Origin: Desulfuromonadaceae bacterium
GTDB taxonomy: Bacteria; Desulfobacterota; Desulfuromonadia; Geobacterales; Pseudopelobacteraceae
NCBI GenBank assembly: GCA_028712665.1
Contig: JAQTRC010000005.1
Span: forward strand, 1 to 43,337
Direction of reading: 5' to 3'
Length of the DNA stretch: 43,337 nt
Shown: positions 8,233 to 38,847 of the stretch, piece by piece
Position numbering within the stretch: the first letter of the stretch is position 1
Layout: each line of letters begins with the position of its first letter
Position numbers and translations under genes: made by a program
The notes under the pieces: generated by a model
What the model saw: only the letters and a program-made list of their open reading frames with translations
Database searches by the model: none
Told to the model about the DNA's origin: nothing

Positions 8233-10617
8233 ATGCACTCCAAAATATTCGTGGTATCATTTAACAAATTCATATTACCGGTATATGAAACCATGAATAA
8301 ATTCAACATGCACCTTACCCCTCTCAGCATTGTCACCTTATACGCCTGTATTGGCGGTATATGGCTTCTTTTGAGTTGCGCCAGGATTTTCACCAACCTG
8401 TTCATCGATCAAGCTGCCTTTACATTACTTGAAGTAAATAACATCGTATTCATTTTGCTGACGTCCTGGCTTCTATATTTTATGATCCGTAAGAGCGAAG
8501 CCGACATCAAACATCGCAAAAATGCGCTCAGCAAACTCTACCGCGCGCTCAAGACTTATAGTCAATGCCATCAGGCTCTTATCAGGGCCGATAACGAAAT
8601 GCAGCTCATGCAAAATATCTGTCGAATTATTGTCGAGGTGGGTGGTTATCGTGTAGCCTGGGTCGGAATTGCGGAACACGACGATGAAAGAAGTATCCGG
8701 CCTATAGTCCAATGGGGGGACAGCCAAGGCTACCTCAAAAACCTTAATGTTAACTGGTCTGACACGGATCGGGGACGAGGGCCCACCGGAACCGCCATCA
8801 AGACCGGAAAACCGGTGGTGGTCAAGTACATTGAGTATGACCCCAAATGGGAACTCTGGCGGGAAAATGCCCTCAGGCACGGCTTCCGTTCGTCCTTATC
8901 ACTGCCGTTAATCATTGCCGGCCGTCCGTTTGCAGCACTGGTAATCTTTTCCGGTGAAACGCGCATCTTTGATGTCAATGAAGTCAAGCTATTGTCCGAA
9001 CTTGCCGATGACCTTTCCTACGGGATTGCCACACTGAGAGCTTCCATCGAACGGTTGAAGGTTGAGAAGGAATACAGCTTGTTGGCATCAGTCATTGAAC
9101 AGGCAAACGAGGGGATATTCCTTTTTAATGATGGGGGTGTTATCCAGTATGTGAACCCTGCTGTGGAGAAAATCACCGGTCTCCCCCCATTGGCCATGGT
9201 CGGCAAAAACATCCAGAACCTGGAGTACATGGAGCCAAACAGGCAGTTCTACGAAGCCATTTTGAAGGGCATTCCGCGCGGCAGACAACGAGCAGGCCAT
9301 TTCCAGTTTAAACGTCAGGACAACGTCATGTTTGAACTGAACGTGATCACCTGGTCGGTGTCGGACGAATCTGGAAACGTCATCAGCCACGTTGCTCTGA
9401 TCCGCGATGTAAGCCATGAAATGCAGCTTGAACGCCAGTTGCGCTGTGCACAGCGTATGGAGGCTATCGGCACCCTGGCTGGTGGCATAGCCCATGATTT
9501 CAACAATACACTGGCTTCCATAATTACCTGCTCCGAAATGGCTTTGGAAGAGTCTCCTCCAGGGAGTACGCTGCATGAACTCATTGAGGTCGTTTTCAAA
9601 TCCGGTCTTCGAGGGAAGAACCTTGTAAAGCAGATACTTACTTTCAGTCGTCAGGGTGAGCAGGAGCGACAAGAGGTGCAAGCTGACCTGGTAGTGCGCG
9701 AATGCCTGATGCTCCTTCGGGCGACCCTGATGCCGACGATCGAGATAAGGCTTCATATAGATAAAAATCTTGGATTGCTGTTCGCGGATCCAACCCAGAT
9801 TCAGCAGATAGTGATGAACCTTTGTACCAATGCCGTTCATGCCATGCGCTCTCAAACACATGGTGAAATGGATATCTGGCTGGATAATGTCGACATTGAT
9901 CACCTTTATGTAACGAATTTCGGCAACCTGTTGCCGGGCCCTTACTTCTGCCTGACCGTCAGAGATAACGGTCACGGAATGGATGAAGATACCATATATC
10001 GCATTTTCGACCCGTTTTTCTCCACTAAGGGGCAGTCCGAAGGTACCGGTCTGGGGCTGTCGGTAATTCACGGGATTGTAAGTAACCACGGCGGTGTCAT
10101 TACAGTAGAGAGCCAACCCGATCAAGGTTCACAATTTAAAGTCTATCTTCCCCGTCTGAATAAATCTACAAACGTAACGACAGATGTTCCAGAAACAACA
10201 GTCTTGTCAGGAACTGAAAGTATTCTTCTGGTGGATGATGACGAAAATCTGGTTTTTGCAACGGAACAGATGCTGAGGCAACTCGGCTACAAGGTAATTG
10301 CGCGGACTGATCCCCTGGTTGCATTGCAATTGTTTTCCTCCTCGCCCGAAAAATATGATCTCATCATCACCGACCAAGCCATGCCTCATATGAATGGAAC
10401 TGAACTGGCCAGGGAACTGACAAGTATCCGACCCGGCATCCCGGTTATTCTCTGCACCGGGTATGATACCATATCAAGCAGTGATACGGACGATATCGGA
10501 GAGACAGCCTCATTCATCAGCGAACTGGCGCTTAAGCCTCTTATACGTGGAGAAATAGCCACAATTATTCGCAGGGTACTCGATGACTCAACTCAGTGTG
10601 AGGGATTACGTGGCTAG
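8233..10617 (+). CDS. Hybrid sensor histidine kinase (GAF-PAS-HisKA-HATPase-REC)
   Basis: This protein has up to 794 aa. Two N-terminal helices (about 31-52 and 66-85) with a very short external loop are followed by GAF (about 120-270), PAS (about 282-400), HisKA with His421 (GGIAHDFNN), HATPase (DNGHGMD, GTGLGLS) and a C-terminal receiver whose acceptor Asp lies in IITDQAMP. The ATG at 8293 is an alternative start; neither start has a good ribosome binding site. It overlaps the next gene, an NtrC-type regulator, by 35 bp, so the two form a phosphorelay operon. The minus-strand regulator gene at 8110 diverges from it across a 122-bp gap that must hold both promoters. The signal is unknown; input is probably cytoplasmic or membrane-borne because there is no large periplasmic domain. 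Confidence 0.92.
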   Translation: MHSKIFVVSFNKFILPVYETMNKFNMHLTPLSIVTLYACIGGIWLLLSCARIFTNLFIDQAAFTLLEVNNIVFILLTSWLLYFMIRKSEADIKHRKNALSKLYRALKTYSQCHQALIRADNEMQLMQNICRIIVEVGGYRVAWVGIAEHDDERSIRPIVQWGDSQGYLKNLNVNWSDTDRGRGPTGTAIKTGKPVVVKYIEYDPKWELWRENALRHGFRSSLSLPLIIAGRPFAALVIFSGETRIFDVNEVKLLSELADDLSYGIATLRASIERLKVEKEYSLLASVIEQANEGIFLFNDGGVIQYVNPAVEKITGLPPLAMVGKNIQNLEYMEPNRQFYEAILKGIPRGRQRAGHFQFKRQDNVMFELNVITWSVSDESGNVISHVALIRDVSHEMQLERQLRCAQRMEAIGTLAGGIAHDFNNTLASIITCSEMALEESPPGSTLHELIEVVFKSGLRGKNLVKQILTFSRQGEQERQEVQADLVVRECLMLLRATLMPTIEIRLHIDKNLGLLFADPTQIQQIVMNLCTNAVHAMRSQTHGEMDIWLDNVDIDHLYVTNFGNLLPGPYFCLTVRDNGHGMDEDTIYRIFDPFFSTKGQSEGTGLGLSVIHGIVSNHGGVITVESQPDQGSQFKVYLPRLNKSTNVTTDVPETTVLSGTESILLVDDDENLVFATEQMLRQLGYKVIARTDPLVALQLFSSSPEKYDLIITDQAMPHMNGTELARELTSIRPGIPVILCTGYDTISSSDTDDIGETASFISELALKPLIRGEIATIIRRVLDDSTQCEGLRG

Positions 10618-12022
10618 GATTTTGATCATAGACGACGACCAACTGATGTGCCAGTCATTATCCCTTGTGGCGAGGCAAAAAGGGTACGAGGCAACAAGCG
10701 CCCATACTCTGGGCGAGGGGCTGGAAAAGGCCATCGCCGAGCCATTCGACGTTGTATTTCTGGATGTCAACATGCCTGATGGCAATGGCCTCGAGTTTCT
10801 CTCCAAACTCCCTAAACTCCCCTCGTCTCCGGAAATCATCATAATAACCGGTTATGGGGATCCGAATGGCGCCGAGTTTGCCATTAAATCCGGCGCCTGG
10901 GACTACCTGGAGAAAGGTGCCTCGGTGAAGGAAATCACCCTCTCATTATTAAGAGCACTTCAATACAGGGAACAGAAACAGATCGCAAACGCAACAAATG
11001 ATGCGGCAAGCATTAAAAGAGAAGGTATTATCGGTAACAGCGCTCGTCTGAGAGAATGTCTTGATCTTGTTGCCCAGGCTGCGATCAGTGATTCCAGCGT
11101 GCTGATTACCGGAGAAACCGGAACCGGCAAAGAGTTGTTTGCAGCGGCGGTACATCAAAACAGCCTCCGGAGTAAAAATAAATTCGTGGTGGTTGACTGT
11201 GCTGCGCTTCCGGAAAACCTTATTGAGGGGATGCTCTTTGGCCACGAGAAAGGGGCTTTCACCAACGCGGACCAGGCACGGGACGGATTAATCTGCCAGG
11301 CCAATGGCGGCACGCTTTTTCTGGACGAGATCGGAGAGATGCCCCTTTCATTGCAGAAAGTTTTCCTGAGGGTGTTGCAGGAACATAGATTTCGGCCATT
11401 GGGGAGTAATCGTGAACTGGAAAGTAATTTCAGACTCGTTACGGCGACCAACCGCAATTTGAACGAGATGGTGAAAAACGAACGCTTCCGCCCAGATCTT
11501 CTGTTCCGCATCAGCACCTTTGTGCTTGAACTGCCGAGTCTCAGAGAACATCCCGAGGACATCAAGGTTCTGGCACGCTACCATACCGACATGATCTGCG
11601 AGCACTACGGCACCCCGCCCAAGGAGTTTTCACCTGATTTCCTGAAAATGCTGGCTGCCTACAGCTGGCCGGGAAATGTCAGGGAGCTGATCAACACCCT
11701 TGAGCGAACCGTGGCGGCGGCCCGCTTTGAATCAATTCTTTTTCCAAAGCATCTTCCTATTAATCTAAGAATAGAAGTAACCAAGAGTACCATGAAACGG
11801 GGTGTCTCCTCTCCCCACTCCACCGAGAATAATGGCACTTTAAGCCTACCCCAACTCCACGAGTTCCGAGACTCCATTTGTTCGAATGCCGAAAAACAGT
11901 ACCTCCAGGATCTTATGGCACTCACCGGCAATAATGTCGCAGAAGCATGCCGTGTGTCCGGTCTTTCCCCATCGCGTCTCTATGCTCTACTCAAGAAACA
12001 GGGAATTCAAGCGCATCATTGA
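10583..12022 (+). CDS. Sigma-54-dependent response regulator with altered GAFTGA loop
   Basis: This 479-aa NtrC-type regulator has a receiver with acidic DDD (17-19), phospho-acceptor Asp61 (FLDVNMPDG) and an AAA+ domain with Walker A GETGTGKE (177-184) and Walker B LFLDEIGEMP. The C-terminal Fis-like helix-turn-helix is NNVAEACRVSGLSPSRLYALLKK in outline. The sigma-54 contact loop reads GAFTNA (224-229), with Asn in place of the second Gly. The start at 10583 overlaps the kinase gene; a GTG at 10610 is possible. It ends 170 bp before a sigma-54 promoter and just before a 12-bp inverted repeat, so it probably controls the cytochrome operon that follows. Confidence 0.93.
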   Translation: MTQLSVRDYVARILIIDDDQLMCQSLSLVARQKGYEATSAHTLGEGLEKAIAEPFDVVFLDVNMPDGNGLEFLSKLPKLPSSPEIIIITGYGDPNGAEFAIKSGAWDYLEKGASVKEITLSLLRALQYREQKQIANATNDAASIKREGIIGNSARLRECLDLVAQAAISDSSVLITGETGTGKELFAAAVHQNSLRSKNKFVVVDCAALPENLIEGMLFGHEKGAFTNADQARDGLICQANGGTLFLDEIGEMPLSLQKVFLRVLQEHRFRPLGSNRELESNFRLVTATNRNLNEMVKNERFRPDLLFRISTFVLELPSLREHPEDIKVLARYHTDMICEHYGTPPKEFSPDFLKMLAAYSWPGNVRELINTLERTVAAARFESILFPKHLPINLRIEVTKSTMKRGVSSPHSTENNGTLSLPQLHEFRDSICSNAEKQYLQDLMALTGNNVAEACRVSGLSPSRLYALLKKQGIQAHH

Positions 12023-12191: not shown

Positions 12192-12207
12192 TGGCATCCC
12201 GATTGCT
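12192..12207 (+). promoter_or_regulatory. Sigma-54 (-24/-12) promoter of the first cytochrome operon
   Basis: TGGCATCCCGATTGCT has TGGCA and a perfect TTGCT -12 box at exact spacing. The first gene of the operon starts 47 bp downstream. Confidence 0.78.
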
Positions 12208-12253
12208 TATAAGTTGAATATCAAATGACAATTAACGGTTAGAGGGGGTTGTC

Positions 12254-12535
12254 ATGGAACCCAACAAGCTTAATAGCAAGACACAAAAGATTGCCAATGT
12301 GATGATTATTGGCATGGTAATAGTCGGAACAGTTATCTTTGCGGTTATCAACCAAGCGTCGTCGGGAGCCGAATTAATGCCCAGGTTGTTTCTACTTTTT
12401 TTCGGCGCCATCATCACCGTTCAGGTAATCCCCAGTCTGATACTGCTGGCAAAAGTTATCAAAGGCGTAGTAACTATTGGCCAGAAAAAACGAGAACCCG
12501 CCAAAGCGATTTCAAGCGGCAACAGAGAGAAATAG
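12254..12535 (+). CDS. Small membrane protein of the Q-x-x-P family (paralogue C)
   Basis: This 93-aa protein has two predicted helices: about 16-34 (MIIGMVIVGTVIFAVIN) and about 43-68 (LFLLFFGAIITVQVIPSLILLA) with the family motif, followed by VIKGV and a basic, polar tail. It is closest to the 92-aa protein at 15007-15285: both share IFxxxNxASxGxELMPxLFLxFxGAIITVQxIP. It differs from paralogues A and B in having an uncleaved first helix rather than a signal-peptide-like start. It is the first gene after the sigma-54 promoter. Function unknown; an assembly or stabilising subunit of the membrane cytochrome complex encoded downstream is a reasonable guess. Confidence 0.85.
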   Translation: MEPNKLNSKTQKIANVMIIGMVIVGTVIFAVINQASSGAELMPRLFLLFFGAIITVQVIPSLILLAKVIKGVVTIGQKKREPAKAISSGNREK

Positions 12536-12539
12536 AGTC

Positions 12540-12938
12540 ATGTCACCATTGGCGGTGACAAAAGAGGCGGCCATGGAAGAACAGGGTATATTGGTTGCGG
12601 ACAAGGACACTGCGTTCCTTAGAGAGGTGGCCGACCACTTCTCAAACGCCGGTTACCAGGTTGAGACAACAGATTCGGCTGTCCGTGTAATCAACAGTAT
12701 TTTAGAAAAACGGACTCCGGTTGTTATGTTGGGAAGCGATTTTGACAAGAAAATCAATCTGCTGGAACTGGTACTGTTTCTGAAGAAGTGCAACCGGCAC
12801 TTGGCGGTGATTCTGGTGTCAGACGAGGCGTCACTTCCTATAGTCAAGAGAATCAGGAAGGAAGGGATATTTTACTACGCACTCCGTCCGGTCAGTGAGT
12901 TCAACAAGGCTGTAGAATATGTTCTAAAGGCGGCATAG
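12540..12938 (+). CDS. Degenerate receiver-domain protein
   Basis: This 132-aa protein (start at 12540, or possibly at the ATG at 12573 with GAGG before it) has the fold pattern of a lone response-regulator receiver: ILVADKD, a helix AFLREVADHFSNAGYQV, VVMLGSDF, LAVILVSDEAS and a final helix. The phospho-acceptor position appears to be Gly (VVMLG instead of LLLD), and the conserved Lys-Pro is Arg-Pro (ALRPVSEF). It is therefore probably a pseudo-receiver that binds a partner without phosphorylation. An alignment would settle whether Asp in GSDFD can substitute. It sits inside an operon for membrane electron-transfer proteins, an unusual place for one. Confidence 0.82.
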   Translation: MSPLAVTKEAAMEEQGILVADKDTAFLREVADHFSNAGYQVETTDSAVRVINSILEKRTPVVMLGSDFDKKINLLELVLFLKKCNRHLAVILVSDEASLPIVKRIRKEGIFYYALRPVSEFNKAVEYVLKAA

Positions 12939-12993
12939 CTGTCATACGTCAAAGCAAGATTCATTAGTCAAATTCATTGAGGGGGAACAAGCC

Positions 12994-13233
12994 ATGTCAT
13001 CACCTCTAACGAAAATCACAATTATTTTAAGCTTTTTGTCAGCAACCTCCATTTCGGCATTAGCTGCCGCCGAGGGTAGGAACAATGAGTCGGAAATAGT
13101 TGTCTGGGGATTTTTGGCGCTATGTGCAGTGATAATAATCGCCCAAATCGCCCCCCTGATTCACAATCTCAAGAAGCAGGGCAAGATGGCGGCCGAACAG
13201 ACGAAGTCAGTTAAATCAGAACAGATGCAATGA
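12994..13233 (+). CDS. Small membrane protein of the Q-x-x-P family (paralogue D)
   Basis: This 79-aa protein has a signal-peptide-like N-terminus (KITIILSFLSATSISALAAA), a short polar stretch, then a transmembrane segment about 35-55 (VVWGFLALCAVIIIAQIAPLI) carrying the Q-x-x-P motif. The Lys-rich, Gln-rich tail lacks the KG pair of the other copies. AGGGGG lies before the ATG. It is the most divergent of the five paralogues. It lies in the operon between the pseudo-receiver and the 7-heme cytochrome, whose upstream ATG overlaps its stop codon. Confidence 0.8.
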   Translation: MSSPLTKITIILSFLSATSISALAAAEGRNNESEIVVWGFLALCAVIIIAQIAPLIHNLKKQGKMAAEQTKSVKSEQMQ

Positions 13234-13268
13234 ACCGAAAATATCTTGGCCAGAAAGGGGGGGGTGGC

Positions 13269-14351
13269 GTGAAACAGGTCGATCTTTTACTCCTAGCGAA
13301 GCATGGCATTATCCTCGTGTCGTTCATTGCGACCTCTGTTGCAACTGGAGATCGGGCAGAGGGAGCCGATTATTCTTTTGGCGACGGCACAAGTAAAAAC
13401 GAGGCATGCATGTCGTGCCACGGAAATCAGGCAAAGGTCAGCGGCCTTAACTATGTCAATCCGAAGAACTTTGGGCATACCACTCATGCCAAGTTCGGTT
13501 GCGTAACCTGCCACGATTCCATTACCAGTAATCATCCTGATGCCAAGGCTGTAGTCCGTACAACCGGTTGCGGCGATTGCCACGGCGAAACGCTCTCCCA
13601 GTATTCGGCAAGTATCCATGCAAAAAACGCGACCTGCAGCGGTTGCCATAACCCTCACAGGGTAAACTCGTCAAGTGAGATCGCTGCCACCGAAATGAAC
13701 AAACAGTGTGCTGTTTGTCACGACAATTACAAGATAACGGCGTCACACTCCCGGTGGCTTCCACAGACCGGACTGCACCTTGGAGCGATAGCCTGTGTTA
13801 CCTGTCACAGCAAGGCGGAAAACTACGTTATTTCCATTTATATTGCCAAACGTGATGGGGCTGAACCTGAATCAAAACCCAATTTGGTCACTTATGAGGA
13901 TCTGCTGAAATATTCTGATGGTGACAACATACAGTATCTTATCGACAGGAATCGCGACAACTATATCTCCCTCGATGAGCTACGAAAGTTCAACCGCGAT
14001 CCGTCCAATAAGAACATCTACCTGAAGGCGATGATGACCCCGGTCAAGCCTACCCATTCCTTTCAGACATTTGATAATAGGTGGGACTGCACCTTCTGCC
14101 ATGCATCCGGGCCGGAAATCATGCAGGTCAGCTATCTCTCTTTCCCCCAACAAAACGGGACCTTCCGGCAAGTGGCCGTGGAAAAGGGGGCCGCAATGGA
14201 TGCCCTGCGCGCCATTCCCAATTTCTACCTGATGGGATCTACCCGAAACGGGGTACTTAACAAGATTGGTCTGCTCATCATCGCCGGCGGAATGGTCATG
14301 CCGGTTGGGCACGGGTTTCTCCGCTTTCTGAGCAGAAAAAACAGACTATAG
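13269..14351 (+). CDS. Membrane-anchored 7-heme c-type cytochrome with an EF-hand loop
   Basis: Seven CXXCH motifs are visible: CMSCH, CVTCH, CGDCH, CSGCH, CAVCH, CVTCH and CTFCH. I prefer the GTG at 13269, which follows a run of G and gives a clean signal peptide (MKQVDLLLLAKHGIILVSF). An ATG at 13230, overlapping the previous stop, would add 13 residues. Between hemes 6 and 7 is a canonical EF-hand loop, D-R-N-R-D-N-Y-I-S-L-D-E (239-250 counted from 13230), predicted to bind calcium. A C-terminal helix (IGLLIIAGGMVMPVGHGFL) should anchor it in the inner membrane, facing the periplasm. The cytochrome b subunit follows after 12 bp, so the two probably form a quinol:cytochrome oxidoreductase like the Geobacter Cbc-type complexes. 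360 aa from the GTG. Confidence 0.9.
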   Translation: MKQVDLLLLAKHGIILVSFIATSVATGDRAEGADYSFGDGTSKNEACMSCHGNQAKVSGLNYVNPKNFGHTTHAKFGCVTCHDSITSNHPDAKAVVRTTGCGDCHGETLSQYSASIHAKNATCSGCHNPHRVNSSSEIAATEMNKQCAVCHDNYKITASHSRWLPQTGLHLGAIACVTCHSKAENYVISIYIAKRDGAEPESKPNLVTYEDLLKYSDGDNIQYLIDRNRDNYISLDELRKFNRDPSNKNIYLKAMMTPVKPTHSFQTFDNRWDCTFCHASGPEIMQVSYLSFPQQNGTFRQVAVEKGAAMDALRAIPNFYLMGSTRNGVLNKIGLLIIAGGMVMPVGHGFLRFLSRKNRL

Positions 14352-14363
14352 AGGAGTACTGTC

Positions 14364-15038
14364 ATGAGCGAGAAAAAGGTCTATCTACAACCGGTTCCAG
14401 TCCGTATCTGGCACTGGCTTAACGCCTTGGGAATAGTCACTCTTTGTATCTCTGGCGCCCAAATCCGCTTCCCTGAATATGTAGCAATATTCAGCAGCTA
14501 CCGTTCCGCGATCCTGCTGCACAACACCGCAGGGATCGTTGTGGCGCTCTCCTTTTCCATATGGTTCTTCTACTACAAGATTGTCGCCGGTAATTTAGCA
14601 GACATATACATACCAAAGAAGAGCGATTTGACGACAGGTCTATTCCGACAAGTTGTTTTCTATTTCTTTGCCTATTTCTTCGGAGCACCCAATCCACACC
14701 ACGCCACACCGGAAAACAAGTTCAACCCTCTTCAGAAATCGGCCTATCTCGGCATCATGTTTGTGCTTATGCCGATTGTCAGCCTGAGCGGCATTTTGCT
14801 TATGAATGTGGGACCGATGCGCGAAATAGTTCTGTTGATCGGTGGACTCAAGATCCTTGTTGCCATACACTTTTTGTCATGTTGCTCACTTAGTGCCTTC
14901 ATTCTCACACATGTCTACCTGGCGACCCTCGGTTCAACTCCAATGGCCTATTTAAAACCTATGTGGACAGGTTGGGAAAAGGTTGAAGATGTAAAAGGAG
15001 CGTGTCATGAGAACAAACAATCATACCAGCAAAACTAA
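14364..15038 (+). CDS. Cytochrome b561-type membrane subunit
   Basis: This 224-aa integral membrane protein has about four to five helices. VRIWHWLNALGIVTLCISG (13-31) is the typical first helix of b-type cytochromes of the thiosulfate-reductase/hydrogenase cytochrome b class, with a histidine-containing start. Further candidate heme-b ligands are His in LLHNTAGIVVAL, in VAIHFLSC and in FILTHVYLATLG. AGGAG lies 8 bp before the ATG. It would take electrons from menaquinol and pass them to the 7-heme cytochrome encoded just upstream, or the reverse. Its last 32 bp overlap the next small membrane protein, which implies translational coupling. Confidence 0.9.
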   Translation: MSEKKVYLQPVPVRIWHWLNALGIVTLCISGAQIRFPEYVAIFSSYRSAILLHNTAGIVVALSFSIWFFYYKIVAGNLADIYIPKKSDLTTGLFRQVVFYFFAYFFGAPNPHHATPENKFNPLQKSAYLGIMFVLMPIVSLSGILLMNVGPMREIVLLIGGLKILVAIHFLSCCSLSAFILTHVYLATLGSTPMAYLKPMWTGWEKVEDVKGACHENKQSYQQN

Positions 15039-15285
15039 TAGAGTAGTCAACATGATGATTTTAGGAGTGGTAGTGGCGGGAGCGGTTATTTTCGGGTTTT
15101 TAAACCACGCATCCACAGGAAGAGAGTTGATGCCCACACTGTTTCTTGCATTTATTGGCGCCATAATCACGGTCCAAATCATCCCCTGCATATTGTTGCT
15201 TGGATCAATACTTAAAGGCATTATAACTCTGGGTCGCAGGGAGCTAAAGTTAGAAGTTTCCGTTCATAACGATGAGGACAAATAG
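15007..15285 (+). CDS. Small membrane protein of the Q-x-x-P family (paralogue E)
   Basis: This 92-aa protein is a close paralogue of the one at 12254-12535, with two helices (about 13-31 and 41-66) and the motif region LFLAFIGAIITVQIIPCILLL followed by ILKGI. An AAGGAG precedes the start, which lies inside the end of the cytochrome b gene. C and E flank the cytochrome pair in the same operon, so the operon probably contains an internal duplication. The function is not known. Confidence 0.85.
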   Translation: MRTNNHTSKTNRVVNMMILGVVVAGAVIFGFLNHASTGRELMPTLFLAFIGAIITVQIIPCILLLGSILKGIITLGRRELKLEVSVHNDEDK

Positions 15286-15331
15286 CAATTTATTCCTTTT
15301 GCACGATAGAGCTATATGAGGGAGGTGCCTC

Positions 15332-15868
15332 ATGTTAAGCAACCTGCCGGTCACCGCACATGGGAAACGCCAAAAAGCTTCTTCGGAAAATGATTTTTAT
15401 GATAGTGAGGCGCGTCCGAACGATCAAGCCCTAGAAGCAAATTTTGATGATCTGTATAGCAATTCACGCAGTGGCCTTAGGGGGTTATTAATATTTCTGG
15501 GCGCCAGCGCAATCGCCTATTACTTTAACGAGCACACCCTGGCCGGTTCGCTCCCTGCCAACATCATGGATCAACTTGGTTCGATACCTCCGGTGATTCT
15601 TATCAATTGCGTGTTTGGCGCATCCACCATCAGTTCTCTGATCAGCATCGCCGGGAAAATCCATAACGGCAGGGAACCGGGTAAAACTTCGACCCATCTA
15701 CTGTTCAGAGTCTTCTTTTATCTGCTCTACTTCATCTCAGGTGCTCTGGGTGACTACTTCAATGTGGTTTTCATTTCCGGGCTCGTCGTCCTTGGCCTTC
15801 AGCACTACAACGTCTGGAATTACTACATGAGGGCCATCGAAAAAATGCGGACAAATATATCGGCATGA
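15332..15868 (+). CDS. Membrane protein, paralogue of the 179-aa protein at 21425
   Basis: This 178-aa protein has a charged N-terminal region (about 1-48) followed by four predicted helices (about 51-70, 83-105, 120-143 and 145-163). The C-terminal part matches the protein at 21425-21964 over a pattern FYLxxF-x-GxxL-x-x-Y-x-x-VFxSGxxxLGxxxYxxW and a final IEK/ITK. GGGAGG precedes the ATG. Both copies are the last gene of a sigma-54 cytochrome operon, which argues for a shared structural role in the two complexes. There are no cysteines or heme motifs. Family not recognised. Confidence 0.85.
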   Translation: MLSNLPVTAHGKRQKASSENDFYDSEARPNDQALEANFDDLYSNSRSGLRGLLIFLGASAIAYYFNEHTLAGSLPANIMDQLGSIPPVILINCVFGASTISSLISIAGKIHNGREPGKTSTHLLFRVFFYLLYFISGALGDYFNVVFISGLVVLGLQHYNVWNYYMRAIEKMRTNISA

Positions 15869-15976
15869 ATAACGTTGACAACCAGATACTGTATCTTTTG
15901 AGTTCGGCCAAGCCCGCCTTATCCTAGCCCCCCGCTCTCCATTCCCCGAGCATTACCAGGTGTATAGAATAAATAG

Positions 15977-15998
15977 GCATATCAATAATATGATATGC
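15977..15998. promoter_or_regulatory. Inverted repeat upstream of the second cytochrome operon
   Basis: GCATATCA (15977-15984) and TGATATGC (15991-15998) are perfect inverted 8-mers. A second, weaker dyad (GTA-TTGT / ACAA-TAC) is at 16057-16079. Both lie 100-210 bp upstream of the sigma-54 promoter at 16187, so they are candidate activator sites. They do not match the 12039-12074 repeat. The rest of 15869-16186 shows no gene that I can support. Confidence 0.4.
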
Positions 15999-16186
15999 AA
16001 TATTATCTTACGTAATTTCAGTATGTTAAGTATTGAGTCATTTCAGGGTTACTACTGTAATTGTATACCGACAATATACTGTACCCCCCCCCACCGCGAT
16101 CCCAATCAAAGAGACATGAGACATCCTGAAATTTATTATTAAATTATATCAGATAGTTATGGCAAATATTTCGGATGATTTTTTTT

Positions 16187-16202
16187 TGGCACGCTCGCTG
16201 CT
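16187..16202 (+). promoter_or_regulatory. Sigma-54 (-24/-12) promoter of the second cytochrome operon
   Basis: TGGCACGCTCGCTGCT has a perfect TGGCACG -24 box and CTGCT -12 box at the correct spacing, preceded by a T tract. The first convincing gene begins 252 bp downstream; a 12-codon reading frame begins 69 bp downstream. Confidence 0.72.
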
Positions 16203-16271
16203 TTGGAGATGTACAGGATCGGGCAATTCAGAAACCAGCAGGCAGATCAAAAATAAGGAAAAGAGGATTCC

Positions 16272-16310
16272 ATGAGAACCGCGTTAAAGGTCACCATGTT
16301 AGCGATTTAG
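16272..16310 (+). other. 12-codon leader frame or remnant of a small-protein gene
   Basis: An ATG preceded by AAGAGG opens a 12-residue frame, MRTALKVTMLAI, that ends at TAG. Its start resembles the N-termini of the small membrane proteins A (MRTLATIIGI) and B (MKTLAALIGT), and it lies where the first gene of this regulon would be expected. It may be a decayed sixth copy or a leader peptide. Evidence is thin. Confidence 0.25.
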
Positions 16311-16454
16311 AAGGTTTTTGAACTCTTCGATGGGCATATTATAAACGCCATCTCGTTTGCAAAGACGAAAGACGGTGAATAATAAAAAAATGTATACAGA
16401 ATGTTGACAGAGTAAAAATCGGAGATATAAGAAAGAAAAGCGAGGAGGTTTATC

Positions 16455-16628
16455 ATGGATTTATCATCAGTAGGCGAAGTTAAGGAAGTTTTCACGCTGG
16501 TAGATTATTACTCGTACATCAAAAGCATGGAATACCTCATCTGCATAGCTTTCTTCGTCGGGTTCCCGATGTTTTACCGTTACATAAACAAAAAGGAGGA
16601 GGGTACCACCTCCGATGATGGTCTCTAG
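16455..16628 (+). CDS. 57-aa membrane protein, first gene of the NrfD-type operon
   Basis: This short gene has a perfect AGGAGG 6 bp before the ATG. Residues 1-24 are polar; a single helix follows at about 28-45 (MEYLICIAFFVGFPMFYRYI), then a charged tail NKKEEGTTSDDG. It has no Q-x-x-P motif, so it is not one of the five paralogues. It precedes the 5-heme cytochrome by 130 bp on the same strand and behind the sigma-54 promoter. A single-helix subunit of the cytochrome/iron-sulfur/NrfD complex is likely. I do not recognise a named family. Confidence 0.72.
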   Translation: MDLSSVGEVKEVFTLVDYYSYIKSMEYLICIAFFVGFPMFYRYINKKEEGTTSDDGL

Positions 16629-16758
16629 GCGATGTTTCTTGCCACAATCCTTTTTAGAGGAAACAACTACAGAGTATCGGCATATGTATGGCGTCTGGTT
16701 CCGTATATGATATGCACGATTGATCAGAATTCACGCAGCATGCAAAGGAGAATGCGTT

Positions 16759-17283
16759 ATGCAGAATAATAGGTTCTGGCTCGCCAGTGGTATGGCGGTT
16801 TTATTGTTTGCTGCGGTTCCAGAGAGTAGCCGGGGGATATCCGTTCCAGATACAATTACCTTGAACAGTCAAAGCAAGCTGTATGAGCCATTCAAATTTG
16901 ATCATGCCAAACATATCATTTTGACGAAGGAATGCTCCTACTGCCACCATCACACCACCGGAACGCTGGAGCAGGATTCCAACTGCGTCAGATGTCACCG
17001 TAACAGTAGCGAGACAAAGGTAGTATCTTGCAAGGGATGCCATCGGACCGATTCGTTCTCAGCTGTCAGCATGAAGGAAAAAGATCCCAAAACCTATCAT
17101 CTGGACAAACCAAGTCTAAAGGCGGCAATGCACCGGAACTGCATCAGCTGCCACGAGAAGATGAAGGGTCCGATCGGTTGCCAGGATTGTCACCATCGTA
17201 CAAAAGAAGGGGACGCCCTCTATAACTCCGGCGTATTTGCTCCCAAGAAAAAAACCGCCAAGGGAGGACACGGTGCACATTGA
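16759..17283 (+). CDS. 5-heme class III-like c-type cytochrome
   Basis: This 174-aa periplasmic cytochrome has a signal peptide (MQNNRFWLASGMAVLLFAAVPESSRG in outline) and CXXCH motifs CSYCH, CVRCH, CKGCH, CISCH and CQDCH. Additional histidines, as in FKFDHAKH and CHHHTTG, are the pattern of class III (cytochrome c3-type) folds. I chose the ATG at 16759, with AAGGAG about 8 bp upstream; the frame is open 13 codons further upstream without a signal peptide. The next genes encode a Tat iron-sulfur protein and an NrfD-type subunit, as in Hmc, Tmc, Qrc and Geobacter Cbc4-type complexes. It probably passes electrons between that complex and periplasmic cytochromes. The tail is Lys/Gly/His-rich. 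Confidence 0.9.
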   Translation: MQNNRFWLASGMAVLLFAAVPESSRGISVPDTITLNSQSKLYEPFKFDHAKHIILTKECSYCHHHTTGTLEQDSNCVRCHRNSSETKVVSCKGCHRTDSFSAVSMKEKDPKTYHLDKPSLKAAMHRNCISCHEKMKGPIGCQDCHHRTKEGDALYNSGVFAPKKKTAKGGHGAH

Positions 17284-17331
17284 CAATCAGCATATACGGT
17301 TAATAGCAGATCCGAACCGAAGGAGAATATC

Positions 17332-18249
17332 ATGAAACGTAGAGATTTCCTGAAAGGCTGCCTGGTGAGTGGAGCAGCCGCCTCTCTTTGTGCGCCATCC
17401 AAAAGTTGGGCAGTCGGCTCCTTCGAGGGATACCCTGATTCAATGGGGGTTCTGGTGGACACGACACGCTGTATCGGCTGTCGAAGCTGCGAAGCTGCCT
17501 GCAATAAGGAGCAAAAGCTTCCTGAGCCGGATGTTCCGTTCGACGACACCTCAGTTTTTAAAGAAAAACGGAGAACTACCGAAAAAGCATATACCGTAGT
17601 CAACCGTTATGAGGCAAACGATGCTCAAAAACCACCCTACCGGAAAATGCAATGCAACCACTGCAACGAACCTGGCTGTTTAACTTCATGCTTTGTAAAT
17701 GCCTATACAAAAACGAAAGAAGGTGCAGTTATCTACAATGCTGAGGTTTGTGTCGGATGCCGCACCTGCATGGTTGCATGTCCCTTCAATATTCCTGCGT
17801 ACAGTTATTCCAGTGCCATTAGTCCGATCATTAAAAAGTGTATTTTTTGCTATCACACACGCCTGAAATTTGGCAAACCTCCCGCATGTGTTGAGATATG
17901 TCCACAGGAAGCTCTTACATTTGGTCTTCGCAGTGATTTGATCAAGATGGGTCACGAACGTATCAGGGAGACACCCGACCGTTATGTCGACCATATTTAT
18001 GGCGAAAAAGAGATGGGTGGCACCAGTTGGCTCTACCTCTCCAGGGTATCAGCAGAACAGATCGGCCTGGATACAACCCTCGGCAATGAGCCGATTATCT
18101 CGAACGTCAAGGATTTTCTCGGTATGGTTCCGATGGTGCTCACAATCTGGCCGGCGCTCTTTACCGGGATACACCTCCTAGCCACCCGTAACAAAAACCA
18201 TGGTGATGTTCACGATAACCATTCTGAGCAGGAGGATGGCAAAAAATGA
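17332..18249 (+). CDS. Tat-exported 4x[4Fe-4S] ferredoxin-like subunit with C-terminal helix
   Basis: This 305-aa protein starts with a Tat signal (KRRDFLKG, then a hydrophobic stretch to about 27). Four cysteine groups follow, as in HmcB/DsrO/NrfC-type subunits: CIGCRSCEAAC, CNHCNEPGCLTSC, CVGCRTCMVAC and CIFCY with a later CVEIC. A C-terminal helix (about 264-283) should anchor it on the periplasmic side of the membrane. It overlaps the NrfD-type gene by 4 bp. Known role in these complexes: electron wire between a quinone-active membrane subunit and cytochromes. The direction of flow cannot be read from sequence. Confidence 0.93.
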   Translation: MKRRDFLKGCLVSGAAASLCAPSKSWAVGSFEGYPDSMGVLVDTTRCIGCRSCEAACNKEQKLPEPDVPFDDTSVFKEKRRTTEKAYTVVNRYEANDAQKPPYRKMQCNHCNEPGCLTSCFVNAYTKTKEGAVIYNAEVCVGCRTCMVACPFNIPAYSYSSAISPIIKKCIFCYHTRLKFGKPPACVEICPQEALTFGLRSDLIKMGHERIRETPDRYVDHIYGEKEMGGTSWLYLSRVSAEQIGLDTTLGNEPIISNVKDFLGMVPMVLTIWPALFTGIHLLATRNKNHGDVHDNHSEQEDGKK

Positions 18250-19613
18250 AAAAATTGATCGCGAGCGGTACACAAAGCGTCGATTCTCTCCAAAAGTCCC
18301 ACGGTCGCAATTGGACTTTGATGGAGAAGCTTTTTCTCGGACTGACACTTCCGCAATACGTTGGACAGGCCCTGCGCAACCCCCTCAACTGGATTTTTGC
18401 AATTATTTTCGCAGTCGGCATTCCAATTATTTTGGGGCGTTTCTTTTTTGGACTCTCCTGGGTCACGCATAGTTCCAATGACTACCCCTGGGGGTTGTTC
18501 CTTGGTTTCGGCCTCTTCGGCATGGTTCCGCTCTCCTCGTCCGGTTTTCTGCTAGGTACATCGTGCGTTGTTTTTGGACGTCACGATTTGGAACCGATGG
18601 AGCGCCTCGGACTCCTAAACGGCCTATTGGGGTATTTTTTCGCCGTGGTTTATCTGCTGATTGACCTTGGACAGCCTTGGCGTTTGCCTTTTCCGATGGT
18701 GGTATCATTTGGGCCGGCAGCAGTGCTCTTCCTGGTCGCCTGGCATGTGTCAACCTACCTTTCGGTGCAGATCGCCGAAGTTTCAACCAGCTTTTTCGAA
18801 TGGATCGGTTTTCCGATCGGTATACGCGCTATAAGGAAAATTACCCTGGGGCTCACCGTATCCGGCATTATCCTCTCCACGCTGCACCAAGGCGCCCTCG
18901 GTGCCCTCTTCACCTATGCCCCAGGTAAAGTTCATCCTCTCTGGTACTCGTCATCATACCAGTGGATACACTTTTTTGTATCGTCCATTCCAGGCGGACT
19001 CTGCATGGTGATCACAGTCAGCACCATTGCCAGCAAGACCATGTCATGGCGGTTTGACAAGCGATTCAAAGAAAGTCTGGACCGTATAACGATCTCACTG
19101 GCCAAAGGCGCCAGTATGGGCCTTGCGACCTATCTCACAATCAAGCTCATGAGTATTGCCCATGACAACAAATGGGCTTATTTTGCCACCGGTTGGGGTG
19201 AATGGTATCTGGTTGAGATATTTATTGGTGTAATACTGCCAATGTTTATGCTTGCGTACGCAATACACCATAAGAATATGGCAATCATACGCTTTGGTGC
19301 TCTCCTTGTTGTAATTGGAATATTTTTGAATAGGCTTAATGTAGCTCTCATTACTTTTAACTGGAAACTGCCTTACAGGGAGATTCCGCACTGGCGTGAA
19401 TTTATCGTCACCCTAACGGTGTACGCTCTCTATATCGTGGTATACCGATTTATCCTCTACAGACTTCCAATTTTATATGAGTGGAGAGTAGAGAAGGAGT
19501 TTGCGCCTGCATACGTAACTGAAACTGAATCGACGCCCCTCAGGCTTGCAGTTGCATATGCCGCCGAAACTGAATCGACGGCTCTGGAAAACAGTGATAC
19601 CGCGACTTCTTGA
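18246..19613 (+). CDS. NrfD/HybB-type quinone-interacting membrane subunit
   Basis: This 455-aa polytopic protein has about ten predicted helices, the size and layout of HybB/HmcC/DsrP-type NrfD members. Recognisable segments include SNDYPWGLFLGFGLF, PLSSSGFLLG and HPLWYSSSYQWIHFFVSSIPGG. It should exchange electrons and protons with the menaquinone pool and hand electrons to the iron-sulfur subunit encoded upstream (4-bp overlap). The C-terminal tail contains a 45-bp imperfect tandem duplication giving two copies of AYxxETESTxL (19509-19600). Confidence 0.92.
   Translation: MKKLIASGTQSVDSLQKSHGRNWTLMEKLFLGLTLPQYVGQALRNPLNWIFAIIFAVGIPIILGRFFFGLSWVTHSSNDYPWGLFLGFGLFGMVPLSSSGFLLGTSCVVFGRHDLEPMERLGLLNGLLGYFFAVVYLLIDLGQPWRLPFPMVVSFGPAAVLFLVAWHVSTYLSVQIAEVSTSFFEWIGFPIGIRAIRKITLGLTVSGIILSTLHQGALGALFTYAPGKVHPLWYSSSYQWIHFFVSSIPGGLCMVITVSTIASKTMSWRFDKRFKESLDRITISLAKGASMGLATYLTIKLMSIAHDNKWAYFATGWGEWYLVEIFIGVILPMFMLAYAIHHKNMAIIRFGALLVVIGIFLNRLNVALITFNWKLPYREIPHWREFIVTLTVYALYIVVYRFILYRLPILYEWRVEKEFAPAYVTETESTPLRLAVAYAAETESTALENSDTATS
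19509..19600 (+). repeat. 45-bp tandem duplication in the NrfD-type gene tail
   Basis: GAAACTGAATCGACG occurs at 19521-19535 and again at 19566-19580 with similar flanks (TGCATA at the same relative position), giving a 45-bp period. It encodes two 15-residue units ending in ETEST. Confidence 0.75.
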
Positions 19614-19686
19614 TGTTAATGTAATGCAATTATAGATGGGGGGAGCGCCCTCCAGAATAGTGAAGAGCTACTGACAGGAGACGACA

Positions 19687-20457
19687 ATGAGACTCTGCTG
19701 GATACTACCCATAGCTGCGATTACGTGCTGCACCATCCCGGCTCTGGCGCTTGATATTAAAGACAAAACTTTTATCACCGAAAATGCCGGTAAGGTCGTG
19801 TTCAGCCACTCCATACATTTAAAGAAGAAAAGCAGAAATTCGCCAAACATAAGCTGTAAGGGATGTCATAACAATGCTATGAAAAGTAATGCCCATTATA
19901 CCATGGCACAGATGTACCAAGGCAAGTCATGCGGACAGTGCCACAATGGCAAACGGGCTTTTGCTCTTGCAAAATGCACAGCCTGCCACAAGGTAAGGAA
20001 CATTACCTTCAAGGTGAAGGAAACCGGACCGGTTCTGTTTAAGCATAATGCTCATTTGCAGAATAAAAGTGAATGCAGCACTTGCCACAATGCGCTTTTC
20101 AAGGCGGGCTCCAACCCGCGTGCAAGCATGAACGAAATGGAAAAAGGAAAATCATGCGGCGCCTGCCATAACGGGAGAAATGCTTTCCCATTGTCGGACT
20201 GTTCCAACTGTCACCCGACAAAGGAAATTACCTATATTGAAAAGGATGCCGGCAACGTTATCTTCAGTCATAACAATCACACCGGCCTTTACAAGTGTGG
20301 TGAATGTCACACTAAAATATTCAACACAATTAAGAGCAAGATCCGGGTCAGCATGAAGGAGATGGAAGCAGGTAAATCATGCGGAGCGTGCCATGAGGGC
20401 AAGACAGCTTTTAGTGTCGCCACAGATAAAGATTGCGATAAATGCCATAAAATGTAG
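19687..20457 (+). CDS. 9-heme c-type cytochrome built of three triheme units
   Basis: This 256-aa protein has a signal peptide ending near ALALDIKD and nine CXXCH motifs: CKGCH, CGQCH, CTACH, CSTCH, CGACH, CSNCH, CGECH, CGACH and CDKCH. They form three similar units of the type CxxCH, then MxxMxxGKSCGxCHNGKxAF, then CxxCH: the c7-type triheme repeat found in Geobacter nanowire-like and periplasmic cytochromes. GGAG lies 8 bp before the ATG. It lies 73 bp after the NrfD-type gene, so it is the likely periplasmic electron acceptor or donor of that complex. Confidence 0.93.
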   Translation: MRLCWILPIAAITCCTIPALALDIKDKTFITENAGKVVFSHSIHLKKKSRNSPNISCKGCHNNAMKSNAHYTMAQMYQGKSCGQCHNGKRAFALAKCTACHKVRNITFKVKETGPVLFKHNAHLQNKSECSTCHNALFKAGSNPRASMNEMEKGKSCGACHNGRNAFPLSDCSNCHPTKEITYIEKDAGNVIFSHNNHTGLYKCGECHTKIFNTIKSKIRVSMKEMEAGKSCGACHEGKTAFSVATDKDCDKCHKM

Positions 20458-20487
20458 TTGCAACCCGGCGATTTGAATTGGTATTGG

Positions 20488-20552
20488 TAAGTTAGAAGTA
20501 TTATTTGATAGAAAATACTTTGTTAACGCAGTTTCCCTTATTCGGTGTCGGG
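20488..20552 (+). repeat. Hairpin repeat, copy 3
   Basis: It begins TAAGTTAGA and has an inverted repeat AAGTATT (20496-20502) / AATACTT (20514-20520). The tail is TTTGTTAACGCAGTTTCCCTTATTCGG. It fills the gap between the 9-heme cytochrome gene and the heme-sensor gene. Confidence 0.7.
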
Positions 20553-20569
20553 AACAGTGGAGGAATGAT

Positions 20570-21403
20570 ATGTTTGCCACACTTGCGGGAAAAGCCCTGA
20601 TTCCGGTTGGTCTTGCCGTTACCGGATTCATGGTGGTCTGTTGTCTGATTCTCTACTCCTTTATCCGTGATGATCTTCATCGTGGCGAGATAGTTCATGC
20701 CAGCAATCTTGCCGACACGGTTCTTAAATCTACCCGCTATGCGATGCTCAAGTCCGACCGGGAAACGCTGGCAACAATTATACGGAATGTGGGTGGTCAG
20801 AAAGGCGTGGATCATGTCAGGATATTTAATAAGAAAGGTATTGTGACCTTTTCTGCCAATTCGGTTGAGATAAACCGTCAGGTGGATAAAAATGCAGAAG
20901 GGTGCATTGTTTGTCACAAGGGGACCGCCCCGGTTACTAATCTTGGGACTATGCAGCAGTCCCGTACCTTCAGAAATCCGGGTGGTATGAGTGTAATGGC
21001 AATTACTGCACCCATCTACAATGAGCCGGACTGTTCATCTGCCGCGTGTCATCCACCAGGCCAGAAGGTTCTTGGTACATTGGACATTGGACTCTCCAGG
21101 GCGGAACTTGAAAGATCGCTTAAATTACTTCGAATCCAGATGATCATCTTTACATTTATGACGCTAATCCTTACTATTGGAGGAGTTACCGCCTTGTTGA
21201 GGAGAAATGTTTTTCTTCCGGTCCAGAGATTGCGGAATTATGTTGAATCCTCTGCATTGAAGGACGATTTGCCGGAACCTCCGCCACACTTGCCTCATGA
21301 TCTTGACATAATAGCTACAGGATATTACAACGTGAAAACGAACTTTGCCGACAAGAAACCGGATACTGAAATATCCGTTAATGACTTCAATAAAAAAAAT
21401 TAG
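20570..21403 (+). CDS. Kinase-less periplasmic heme sensor protein
   Basis: This 277-aa protein has helices at about 11-30 and 190-210 around a periplasmic domain with CIVCH (112-116) and CSSAACH, CX4CH (155-161). This is the same layout as the sensor of the kinase at 5073-6674, with the CX4CH at the identical residue number. Both share features such as YAML/YDAMM, a GVxHxRIF/DIAHIRLID strand and LGTLDIGLS/LGLLDISIS. After the second helix only a HAMP-like start (FLPVQRLRNYV) and about 50 residues remain; no kinase, cyclase or methyl-accepting domain follows. It may be an electron-transfer or redox-sensing subunit of the cytochrome complex. GGAGG precedes the ATG. Confidence 0.87.
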   Translation: MFATLAGKALIPVGLAVTGFMVVCCLILYSFIRDDLHRGEIVHASNLADTVLKSTRYAMLKSDRETLATIIRNVGGQKGVDHVRIFNKKGIVTFSANSVEINRQVDKNAEGCIVCHKGTAPVTNLGTMQQSRTFRNPGGMSVMAITAPIYNEPDCSSAACHPPGQKVLGTLDIGLSRAELERSLKLLRIQMIIFTFMTLILTIGGVTALLRRNVFLPVQRLRNYVESSALKDDLPEPPPHLPHDLDIIATGYYNVKTNFADKKPDTEISVNDFNKKN

Positions 21404-21424
21404 TCCAAAGCTATCGGGGATTGC

Positions 21425-21964
21425 ATGACAGGCCTGAGTGAACATCAACGGTCGGCTGATATCAATGAATCCCACGATGGCGCTGATAGCCTTCGACAAG
21501 AATTAATGAGGGAAATAAACCGGTTGAACCGCTTTTCAGTCCGCGGTATCCTGGCGCTTTCCTTGTTTCTAGTAGTCTGTATCCTTGCCTGGTGGGAGTT
21601 TTCCTTTCTTCCAGCTCCTGAAAAAGTCACCGCTTTGCTGGGTAAACCTCCATCTGCCGGCATTATCAGCATCGCACTCCTGCTCTATACTTTTTCAGCT
21701 ATCATACTTAGTCTTTCCCGAATGACTGCAGGCGTTGAACATCGCAGCAGTTTCAGCCATGTAGCTTATCTGACACTCTTTTTTCTCTTTTATTATTTTG
21801 GTAAATCCCTTGAAGAAAATTACTGGGCGGTATTCGGATCAGGTGTAACAATTCTGGGAGTTGAAAGTTATCGGATATGGACCTTTTGCGCCGAGGGTAT
21901 TACCAAAAACAGGGAAGATATTGAGTATGTTAATAGAACCGGCAGGCCTCCGCCAGAGGAGTGA
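21425..21964 (+). CDS. Membrane protein, paralogue of the 178-aa protein at 15332
   Basis: This 179-aa protein has a polar N-terminus and four predicted helices (about 38-58, 75-95, 108-125 and 136-152). Its C-terminal half aligns with the protein at 15332-15868 (FxxFYxxFGKSLEENYWAVFGSG region, then LGVESYRIW and ITK). It is the last gene of the second cytochrome operon, as its paralogue is of the first. It ends 10 bp before the convergent carbonic anhydrase gene. Function unknown. Confidence 0.83.
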   Translation: MTGLSEHQRSADINESHDGADSLRQELMREINRLNRFSVRGILALSLFLVVCILAWWEFSFLPAPEKVTALLGKPPSAGIISIALLLYTFSAIILSLSRMTAGVEHRSSFSHVAYLTLFFLFYYFGKSLEENYWAVFGSGVTILGVESYRIWTFCAEGITKNREDIEYVNRTGRPPPEE

Positions 21965-26993: not shown

Positions 26994-27002
26994 CTGCGGG
27001 GA

Positions 27003-27845
27003 CTAGTAACCGGACGCAGAGCGCCTTGATTGCGGACCAAACAGCAGCAGGTCGAGTTCGTTTTTGAGGAGGGCTCCGTGCAGTGGGGGGATCTGTCGCT
27101 CTTTGCGGCTGTTTTTCAGATGCTCCGGTCCGATCTTTTCGGCCAATAGAATTTTCAGCCAGTCGAGCAATTCGGAGGTTGAAGGTTTTTTCTTCAGACC
27201 GGGGACTTCACGTACCCCAAAAAAGACCTCCAAAGCCTCTTTTACCAGAGAGGAGTGGATGTCTGGATAGTGTACCGCAACAATCTGTTCGAGTGTTTCC
27301 CTGTCAGGAAAGCGGATGAAGTGAAAAAAACAGCGCCGCAGGAAAGCGTCGGGCAGCTCCTTCTCATTGTTGCTGGTAATGATTATTATTGGGCGGTGTT
27401 TGGCCTGCACCACCTGCTGCGTTTCGTAGACATAGAATTCCATCCGGTCCAGTTCGCGCAGCAGATCGTTTGGAAACTCGATGTCGGCCTTATCAACCTC
27501 ATCGATAAGCACGACGGCCTGGCAATCAGACTCGAAGGCCTCCCACAGTTTGCCCTTGACGATGTAGTTAGAGATTGCATGAACTCTGGGATCACCCAAC
27601 TGCGAGTCCCTCAGGCGCGAAACCGCATCGTACTCATACAGCCCCTGTTGGGCCTTGGTGGAGGATTTTATGTGCCACTGGAAGAGCGGCTTGCCAAGAG
27701 CCCGAGCCACTTCCTCGGCCAGCATGGTCTTTCCTGTGCCCGGTTCTCCCTTTATCAACAGGGGGCGTTCAAGAACGATAGCCGAATTGACCGCCAACAT
27801 CAGGTCATCGGTGGCAATATAAGAATCTGTTCCGGTAAATTTCAT
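27003..27845 (-). CDS. MoxR-type AAA+ ATPase
   Basis: This 280-aa ATPase has Walker A GEPGTGKT (about 37-44), Walker B VVLIDEVDKAD (about 110-120) and sensor 1 IIITSNNEKELPDAFLRRC. This signature is typical of the MoxR group. It would work with the VWA protein encoded 9 bp downstream. It is separated from the upstream Rrf2 gene by a strong terminator (27872-27902), so it has its own promoter in a very short leader or depends on read-through. Confidence 0.93.
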   Translation of the reverse strand: MKFTGTDSYIATDDLMLAVNSAIVLERPLLIKGEPGTGKTMLAEEVARALGKPLFQWHIKSSTKAQQGLYEYDAVSRLRDSQLGDPRVHAISNYIVKGKLWEAFESDCQAVVLIDEVDKADIEFPNDLLRELDRMEFYVYETQQVVQAKHRPIIIITSNNEKELPDAFLRRCFFHFIRFPDRETLEQIVAVHYPDIHSSLVKEALEVFFGVREVPGLKKKPSTSELLDWLKILLAEKIGPEHLKNSRKERQIPPLHGALLKNELDLLLFGPQSRRSASGY

Positions 27846-33175: not shown

Positions 33176-33212
33176 AAAACACTTATAGAAAAAGAAGAGG
33201 AGCAAAAAAATA

Positions 33213-37453: not shown

Positions 37454-37455
37454 GA

Positions 37456-38223: not shown

Positions 38224-38240
38224 CCATAACTCCCCCTGCT

Positions 38241-38845: not shown

Positions 38846-38847
38846 GC

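Follow-up and report, generated by a model that had tools for sequence, protein, structure and literature searches.

How do two neighbouring respiratory operons come to end in homologous genes when the quinone-linked cores encoded ahead of these genes are of different types? The question is raised by a stretch of 43,337 nucleotides (the window, below) from a Desulfuromonadaceae bacterium (assembly GCA_028712665.1, contig JAQTRC010000005.1), whose genome (3.55 Mb in 197 contigs, 98.7% complete) has its relatives among the metagenome-assembled genomes (MAGs) and isolates of the Geobacteraceae and Desulfuromonadales. Two operons lie on the forward strand, operon 1 at 12254-15868 and operon 2 at 16455-21964, both of which probably encode machinery for electron transfer from the membrane to the cell exterior. 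We consider it fairly likely that operon 1 is of the CbcBA type and that operon 2 represents a hybrid form of Cbc5, in which CbcC, CbcD and CbcE are placed on a core of the Hmc/Hyb type, with CbcD-CbcE as a portable unit and the core repeatedly exchanged. Part of this reading is that the hybrid operon would still be under Cbc5-type control by sigma-54 and a diheme kinase.

Operon 2 ends in homologues of CbcC, CbcD and CbcE

The last three genes of operon 2 encode a 256-residue cytochrome with three c7 triheme modules and nine hemes (19687-20457, forward strand, as are all features below unless stated; TIGR04257, E 1.9e-75 over three stretches), a 277-residue membrane-anchored protein whose Cache-type domain carries, by alignment, two heme motifs (CX2CH and CX4CH) and which has no output domain (20570-21403), and a helical membrane protein of 179 residues, E2 (21425-21964), with an all-helical predicted model (predicted local distance difference test score, pLDDT, 86). 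Geobacter sp. AOG1 and Geomobilimonas luticola carry the order NtrC-[REC-sB]-cbcA(7 hemes)-cbcB-cbcC(12 hemes)-cbcD-cbcE, where REC is a receiver and sB a small membrane protein. This order fits the published Cbc5, which comprises a 7-heme CbcA, a cytochrome b (CbcB), a 12-heme CbcC/OmcQ, a 2-heme HAMP protein (CbcD) and the membrane protein CbcE (PMC7894505, PMC11434368) and has its G. metallireducens counterpart in Gmet_2928-2932 (PMC10470525). The agreement leads us to assign the last three genes of operon 2, in the same order, as CbcC, CbcD and CbcE, an assignment based on the order of the genes, their heme counts and comparison with named relatives in Geobacter. In most operons of this canonical cbcABCDE type, CbcC is the 12-heme version.

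A preliminary description of this DNA, which had held that no known complex matches in full, passed over the identity of these 256-, 277- and 179-residue products, as well as a receiver (12540-12938) and a 92-residue protein (15007-15285) in operon 1. A known complex, Cbc5/CbcABCDE (PMC11434368, PMC10470525, PMC7894505), does in fact correspond to operon 1 and to the tail of operon 2. The description's claim that the 178- and 179-residue products encoded last in the two operons are homologous was borne out (BLASTP E 1e-15, 25% over 171 residues; reciprocal genome searches, 1.8e-11 and 2.6e-11). A fold search with the CbcE model returned only generic helical bundles, the best at an E-value of 0.44, so that no function was assigned from its fold. 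One genome of the genus contains a lone truncated piece of CbcE, probably a remnant, whose surroundings hold no further Cbc gene (locus L079, 14077-14310).

The core of operon 2 is of a different type

CbcA and CbcB are replaced in operon 2 by four other genes. The first encodes s57, a single-transmembrane protein of 57 residues (16455-16628), which is conserved ahead of the 5-heme cytochrome gene in almost every hybrid locus, at up to 95% identity; it had no Pfam match. It is followed by a periplasmic cytochrome of 174 residues from the ATG at 16759 (16759-17283), whose five CXXCH motifs are conserved in 23 of the 24 loci scored and which has partial NCBIfam matches to the HmcA C-terminus and TmcA. 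Next come an iron-sulfur (Fe-S) protein of the HmcB/HybA type (17332-18249), exported by twin-arginine translocation (Tat; RR at residue 3), with a C-terminal transmembrane segment and 16 cysteines whose pattern corresponds to four 4Fe-4S clusters, and an NrfD-type quinone subunit of the HmcC/HybB type (18246-19613; NCBIfam E 4.9e-105 and 2e-44). A search of solved structures with the NrfD protein gave zero matches.

Family scores place this core near Hmc and Hyb, though it falls short of the membership thresholds of both. The Fe-S protein reaches 409 bits against HmcB (NF045715, cut-off 420) and 212 against HybA (cut-off 263), far above its scores with the DsrO and NrfC types (88 and 85 bits), while the NrfD subunit reaches 352 bits against HmcC (NF045714, cut-off 550) and 153 against HybB (cut-off 450). 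The preliminary description had likened the pair to Hmc, Qrc and Cbc4; the likeness to Hmc stands, as the HmcBC/HybAB type, and that to Qrc falls, with 55 bits against QrcC (cut-off 400), 44 against QrcD (cut-off 570) and no open reading frame (ORF) like the molybdopterin-type QrcB.

Operon 2 resembles Hmc of Desulfovibrio (HmcABCDEF) in its HmcB-like Tat Fe-S protein, HmcC-like NrfD and multiheme cytochrome, but that cytochrome has five hemes rather than 16, no HmcD-, HmcE- or HmcF-like gene or other further Hmc-like gene was seen among the operon's annotated ORFs, and the genes are linked to CbcC-CbcD-CbcE. It resembles HybA/HybB of Escherichia coli hydrogenase-2 in the order of a Tat-leader Fe-S protein with a C-terminal transmembrane segment and an NrfD-family quinone subunit, but contains no hydrogenase genes and has multiheme cytochromes as partners. 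The organisation of cytochrome c, Fe-S protein and NrfD is also that of Cbc4 (CbcSTU, Geobacter) and of SirCD/NrfCD, whereas family scores, taken against HmcB, DsrO and NrfC, point to the HmcB type for the Fe-S protein of operon 2. Other Fe-S/NrfD sets are present elsewhere in the host genome. With Cbc5, operon 2 shares the CbcC-like c7 cytochrome, the diheme CbcD, CbcE and the regulator neighbourhood, and differs in that its CbcC has nine hemes and a core of the Hmc/Hyb type stands where Cbc5 has CbcAB.

Operon 1 is a stand-alone CbcBA operon

Operon 1 contains the CbcBA core, a membrane-anchored heptaheme c-type cytochrome followed by a b561-type cytochrome b, in agreement with the published make-up of CbcA and CbcB (PMC7726332, PMC10470525). 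CbcA (13230-14351) has 373 residues, seven CXXCH motifs and a C-terminal transmembrane anchor, and matches the solved chain 28pb_A ("Cytochrome c") over 272 residues (E 1.1e-89). CbcB (14364-15038; Pfam Ni_hydr_CYTB, E 5.7e-27) falls in the tree into a stand-alone clade that is separated from the canonical clade with support of 100/99 on each side; the exceptions are four genes in canonical positions (L129, L145, L149 and L160) that sit in the stand-alone clade. The preliminary description had correctly seen a multiheme cytochrome and a quinone-type membrane subunit in each operon, the cytochromes having 7, 5 and 9 CXXCH motifs and the subunits being the b561 and NrfD matches. Since its CbcB belongs to a separate clade, operon 1 as a displaced canonical CbcAB is disfavoured.

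Ahead of the core lie genes for a 93-residue small membrane protein, sA1 (12254-12535), in a conserved position; a pseudo-receiver of 132 residues from the ATG at 12540 (12540-12938), which scores 27.0 bits against Pfam Response_reg, below the cut-off of 30.2; and the conserved 79-residue membrane protein sB (12994-13233). The pseudo-receiver is conserved across canonical, stand-alone and hybrid operons, and its phospho-acceptor Asp is replaced by Gly or Ser in every aligned homologue. After the core come sA2 (15007-15285), a 92-residue paralogue of sA1 (49% identical) whose gene overlaps the end of cbcB and which is also found in L074, and E1 (15332-15868), the 178-residue helical homologue of E2, which adjoins cbcB in all stand-alone operons seen. 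Stand-alone operons bring their own hybrid kinase, NtrC1 regulator, small proteins and 178-residue E1 gene. Operon 1 is like Cbc5 in its heptaheme CbcA, b561-type CbcB and CbcE-like last gene, and unlike it in having no CbcC or CbcD, a CbcB of a separate clade, its own kinase/NtrC pair and additional small proteins. We read it as encoding a putative menaquinol:cytochrome c oxidoreductase of the CbcBA type, which would exchange electrons with menaquinone, together with a protein like CbcE. CbcBA is needed for respiration at low redox potential, a phenotype established in G. sulfurreducens only.

The two operons had been described as matching in their first parts. This does not hold in the window, where operon 1 opens with the 93-residue protein, the pseudo-receiver and the 79-residue protein and operon 2 with s57, with no homology detected between them. 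In relatives (L065, L066 and the Geomonas loci), hybrid operons do open with the same receiver, sometimes together with the 79-residue protein, so that a shared start exists there, while in the window it is chiefly the 3' ends that are shared.

A motif like FLGFCALIVVxQxIPA is shared by at least five small membrane proteins, 75-93 residues long (2524-2751; 4457-4684, reverse strand; 12254-12535; 12994-13233; 15007-15285); two of them lie outside the operons, near a kinase/regulator pair, and together they apparently form a family tied to these respiratory loci. The stretch DRNRDNYISLDEL at residues 238-254 of CbcA resembles an EF-hand loop (Pfam E 7.8e-4, under the cut-off). The loop also occurs in 28pb_A and is a possible calcium site in a respiratory cytochrome.

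One CbcD-CbcE module occurs with alternative cores

We surveyed 141 genomes of the order, with 80 named loci for CbcD-CbcE adjacency. The NrfD of the operon 2 type was found in 49 genomes, CbcB in 96 and CbcD in 109. CbcD adjoins NrfD in 47 genomes and CbcB in 55, and in none does it adjoin both, which lends strong support to the common accessory set serving different cores that the preliminary description had suggested. That the two never coincide is partly expected because most genomes carry one CbcD-CbcE module only; what is informative is the occurrence of one module with either of two cores. In 35 of the 49 NrfD genomes CbcB is also present elsewhere, at most 12 kb away in 20 of them, although these 20 are not independent because 12 belong to one genus (g22). 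CbcE adjoins CbcD in all 78 named loci in which the contig does not end first. The preliminary description had named, as the outcome that would refute it, last genes lying mostly away from cytochrome genes, and this outcome was not borne out.

Hybrid operons, some without CbcC, occur in Geomonas spp., Citrifermentans bremense, Trichlorobacter sp. MAG11 and Geobacter sp. OR-1. Mapping the hybrid and canonical states on the CbcD tree gave approximately 11 changes, of which at least five are forced by well-supported branches. CbcD of the window shares 83% identity with the CbcD of one canonical operon (L087) and 83-85% with those of hybrids, so cores differ between near-identical modules. A third core was found in one lineage (L147, 7420-9279, the same record as L180, 6231-8090), where a 619-residue, 9-heme cytochrome with six predicted transmembrane segments, CbcL-like by its make-up, is followed by a small protein, CbcD and CbcE. 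An assembly artefact was rejected as the cause of the tandem arrangement of operons, since two other MAGs, L086 and L091, show it too.

Sigma-54 sites and regulators near the operons

Both features of a sigma-54-dependent operon, a -24/-12 element and an NtrC-type activator close by, were found. As had been proposed, each operon has its own promoter, at 12192-12208 (TGGCATCCCGATTGCTT) for operon 1 and 16187-16203 (TGGCACGCTCGCTGCTT) for operon 2, both exact consensus matches. They are the only exact matches to the pattern TGGCAYN5YTGCTT on either strand of the 43 kb, against 0.01 expected and with none of 100 shuffles reaching two, an expectation that is somewhat too favourable because the pattern was derived from these two sites. 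This strict pattern failed on many of the relatives' sites, which a weighted scan recovered: independently of the pattern, sites above the 95% null level lie upstream of 41 of the 73 CbcA operons and, for the Fe-S operons, of 17 of 34 (some unrelated Fe-S genes included), and such sites are much commoner there than in random 600-bp stretches. The operon 1-type site is kept in relatives, 59-75 bp 5' of the first gene.

Upstream of operon 1 lie two regulatory pairs. A 533-residue sensor histidine kinase with a periplasmic diheme sensor domain (5073-6674; HAMP/HisKA/HATPase) is the partner of the adjacent sigma-54 response regulator NtrC0 (6695-8110, reverse strand; Pfam), and the same kinase flanks the operons of relatives. 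NtrC0 has as its orthologue the regulator encoded divergently from canonical cbcABCDE operons; its counterpart in G. sulfurreducens is presumably BccR. Orthologues 60-85% identical to NtrC0 adjoin canonical as well as hybrid operons. As NtrC0 and the diheme kinase flank both operon types in relatives, the cores were exchanged at one and the same locus. The second pair, a hybrid sensor kinase with a GAF-PAS-HK-REC architecture (8233-10617; Pfam) and the sigma-54 response regulator NtrC1 (10583-12022; Pfam), belongs to operon 1 by synteny, the kinase travelling with the stand-alone CbcBA operon in L070-L074 and L162.

The sensor domain of the diheme kinase is homologous to CbcD (BLASTP E 3e-28, 32% over 186 residues). 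The predicted model of CbcD resembles the sensor domains of WalK, KinD, DctB and CitA; a search of solved structures with the CbcD profile gave zero matches. From this homology, the Cache-like model, the paralogues that occur without CbcE and the receiver that lacks its Asp, we infer that CbcD may be a domain akin to a redox sensor, bearing heme, that CbcE holds and that is attached to whichever core is present; alternatively, it may act as an electron relay. In L173-L177, CbcD-like diheme proteins without CbcE are encoded near a 1079-residue protein with 11-14 predicted transmembrane segments, perhaps a transporter-type sensor kinase.

In the mechanism that we propose for the hybrid, the core would exchange electrons with menaquinone; its Fe-S clusters and hemes would hand them to the multiheme CbcC, from which they would reach periplasmic cytochromes, and CbcC, CbcD and CbcE would be physically joined to the core. 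CbcE would be a membrane adaptor that pairs with CbcD, and CbcD, through its heme-bearing Cache sensor-like domain, would report or buffer the periplasmic redox state rather than act as the main carrier. Exchange of the core at one locus would presumably tune respiration to the potential of the acceptor. During direct interspecies electron transfer in G. metallireducens, cbcA and cbcB rise 29-42-fold and cbcC, cbcD and cbcE just 2-2.8-fold (PMC10470525), a difference that is consistent with, and no proof of, CbcCDE as a separable unit.

Alternative explanations

Several observations weigh against a Cbc5 hybrid with a portable module. CbcC is missing from 13 of 24 hybrid loci, about half, and the receiver and sB genes, present in most relatives, are absent from operon 2 of the window. 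The sequence does not fix the direction of electron flow, and cores of the HybAB and Qrc types reduce quinone. The CbcD model is of moderate quality (pLDDT 75), CbcE has no informative structural match, and the 11 state changes are approximate, as the CbcD tree was a quick one with many weak branches.

A broader form of this reading is more tentative: CbcD-CbcE would be a general portable module, a redox-sensing heme domain with its membrane adaptor, that serves at least three cores (CbcBA, the Hmc/Hyb-type Fe-S-NrfD core and the CbcL-like c-b fusion), the cores having been repeatedly exchanged while the module and its regulators were kept.

We regard it as unlikely that CbcD and CbcE are purely regulatory, a feedback sensor that competes with or feeds the homologous diheme kinase and is no part of the enzyme. 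CbcD does share homology with the sensor domain of the neighbouring kinase, its model has a kinase-sensor fold, and the conserved receiver without a phospho-acceptor Asp means that the operons encode further signalling-like parts. However, CbcD carries no output domain, whether kinase, receiver or any other, its conservation with CbcE, a membrane protein without a signalling match, suggests a structural role, and published annotations treat it as a subunit of the complex.

It seems quite unlikely that the core of operon 2 is instead a quinone reductase fed by periplasmic cytochromes or hydrogen, as in Hmc, HybAB and Qrc, such that electrons would flow in opposite directions in the two operons. 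Its best family matches, HmcB/HmcC and HybA/HybB, fit such a role, and a study of Seep-SRB proposes that even CbcBA could run in reverse (PMC10553843); against this, no periplasmic hydrogenase or dehydrogenase gene lies within the operon, which is linked to CbcC-CbcE and to the NtrC0/kinase locus of the outward-respiring Cbc5.

Finally, that two unrelated complexes, CbcBA and an Hmc-like one, merely share a four-helix membrane protein, with CbcC, CbcD and CbcE co-transcribed for regulation or by chance, is improbable. In its favour, many hybrids have dropped CbcC, the CbcD-like proteins near the 1079-residue multi-transmembrane protein have neither CbcE nor a quinone core with them, and a few CbcD-CbcE pairs have no core nearby. 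Against it, CbcD-CbcE stands beside NrfD (47/141), CbcB (55/141) and the 9-heme cytochrome c-b fusion of L147/L180, and its unbroken pairing (78/78 loci) makes chance linkage not credible.

Other genes in the window

Downstream of the respiratory operons, a CoxE-like VWA protein and a MoxR-like AAA ATPase form a pair on the reverse strand (25815-27845). Further on (30563-40916), a tungsten-type aldehyde ferredoxin oxidoreductase is followed by CCG-domain Fe-S, long flavin adenine dinucleotide (FAD)/Fe-S (HdrA-like) and NuoF-like proteins, which might together form an electron-bifurcating set.

Implications for extracellular respiration

CbcBA, Hmc and HybAB were already known, and what is apparently new is the placement of CbcCDE on an Hmc/Hyb-type core and its repeated exchange; no earlier account of either turned up in the literature searched, which took in few subscription papers, and one may nevertheless exist. 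In Geobacter, the quinone oxidoreductases of the inner membrane are believed to determine how much energy extracellular respiration yields, each known one having its own range of acceptor potential. An exchange of the core in which the accessory genes are kept offers a natural experiment that separates the role of CbcCDE from that of CbcBA. We predict that the Hmc-like core would fill the niche of CbcBA in Geomonas, Citrifermentans and Trichlorobacter, and a survey for extracellular electron transfer with CbcBA as its only marker would miss the hybrid complex of about a third of the order.

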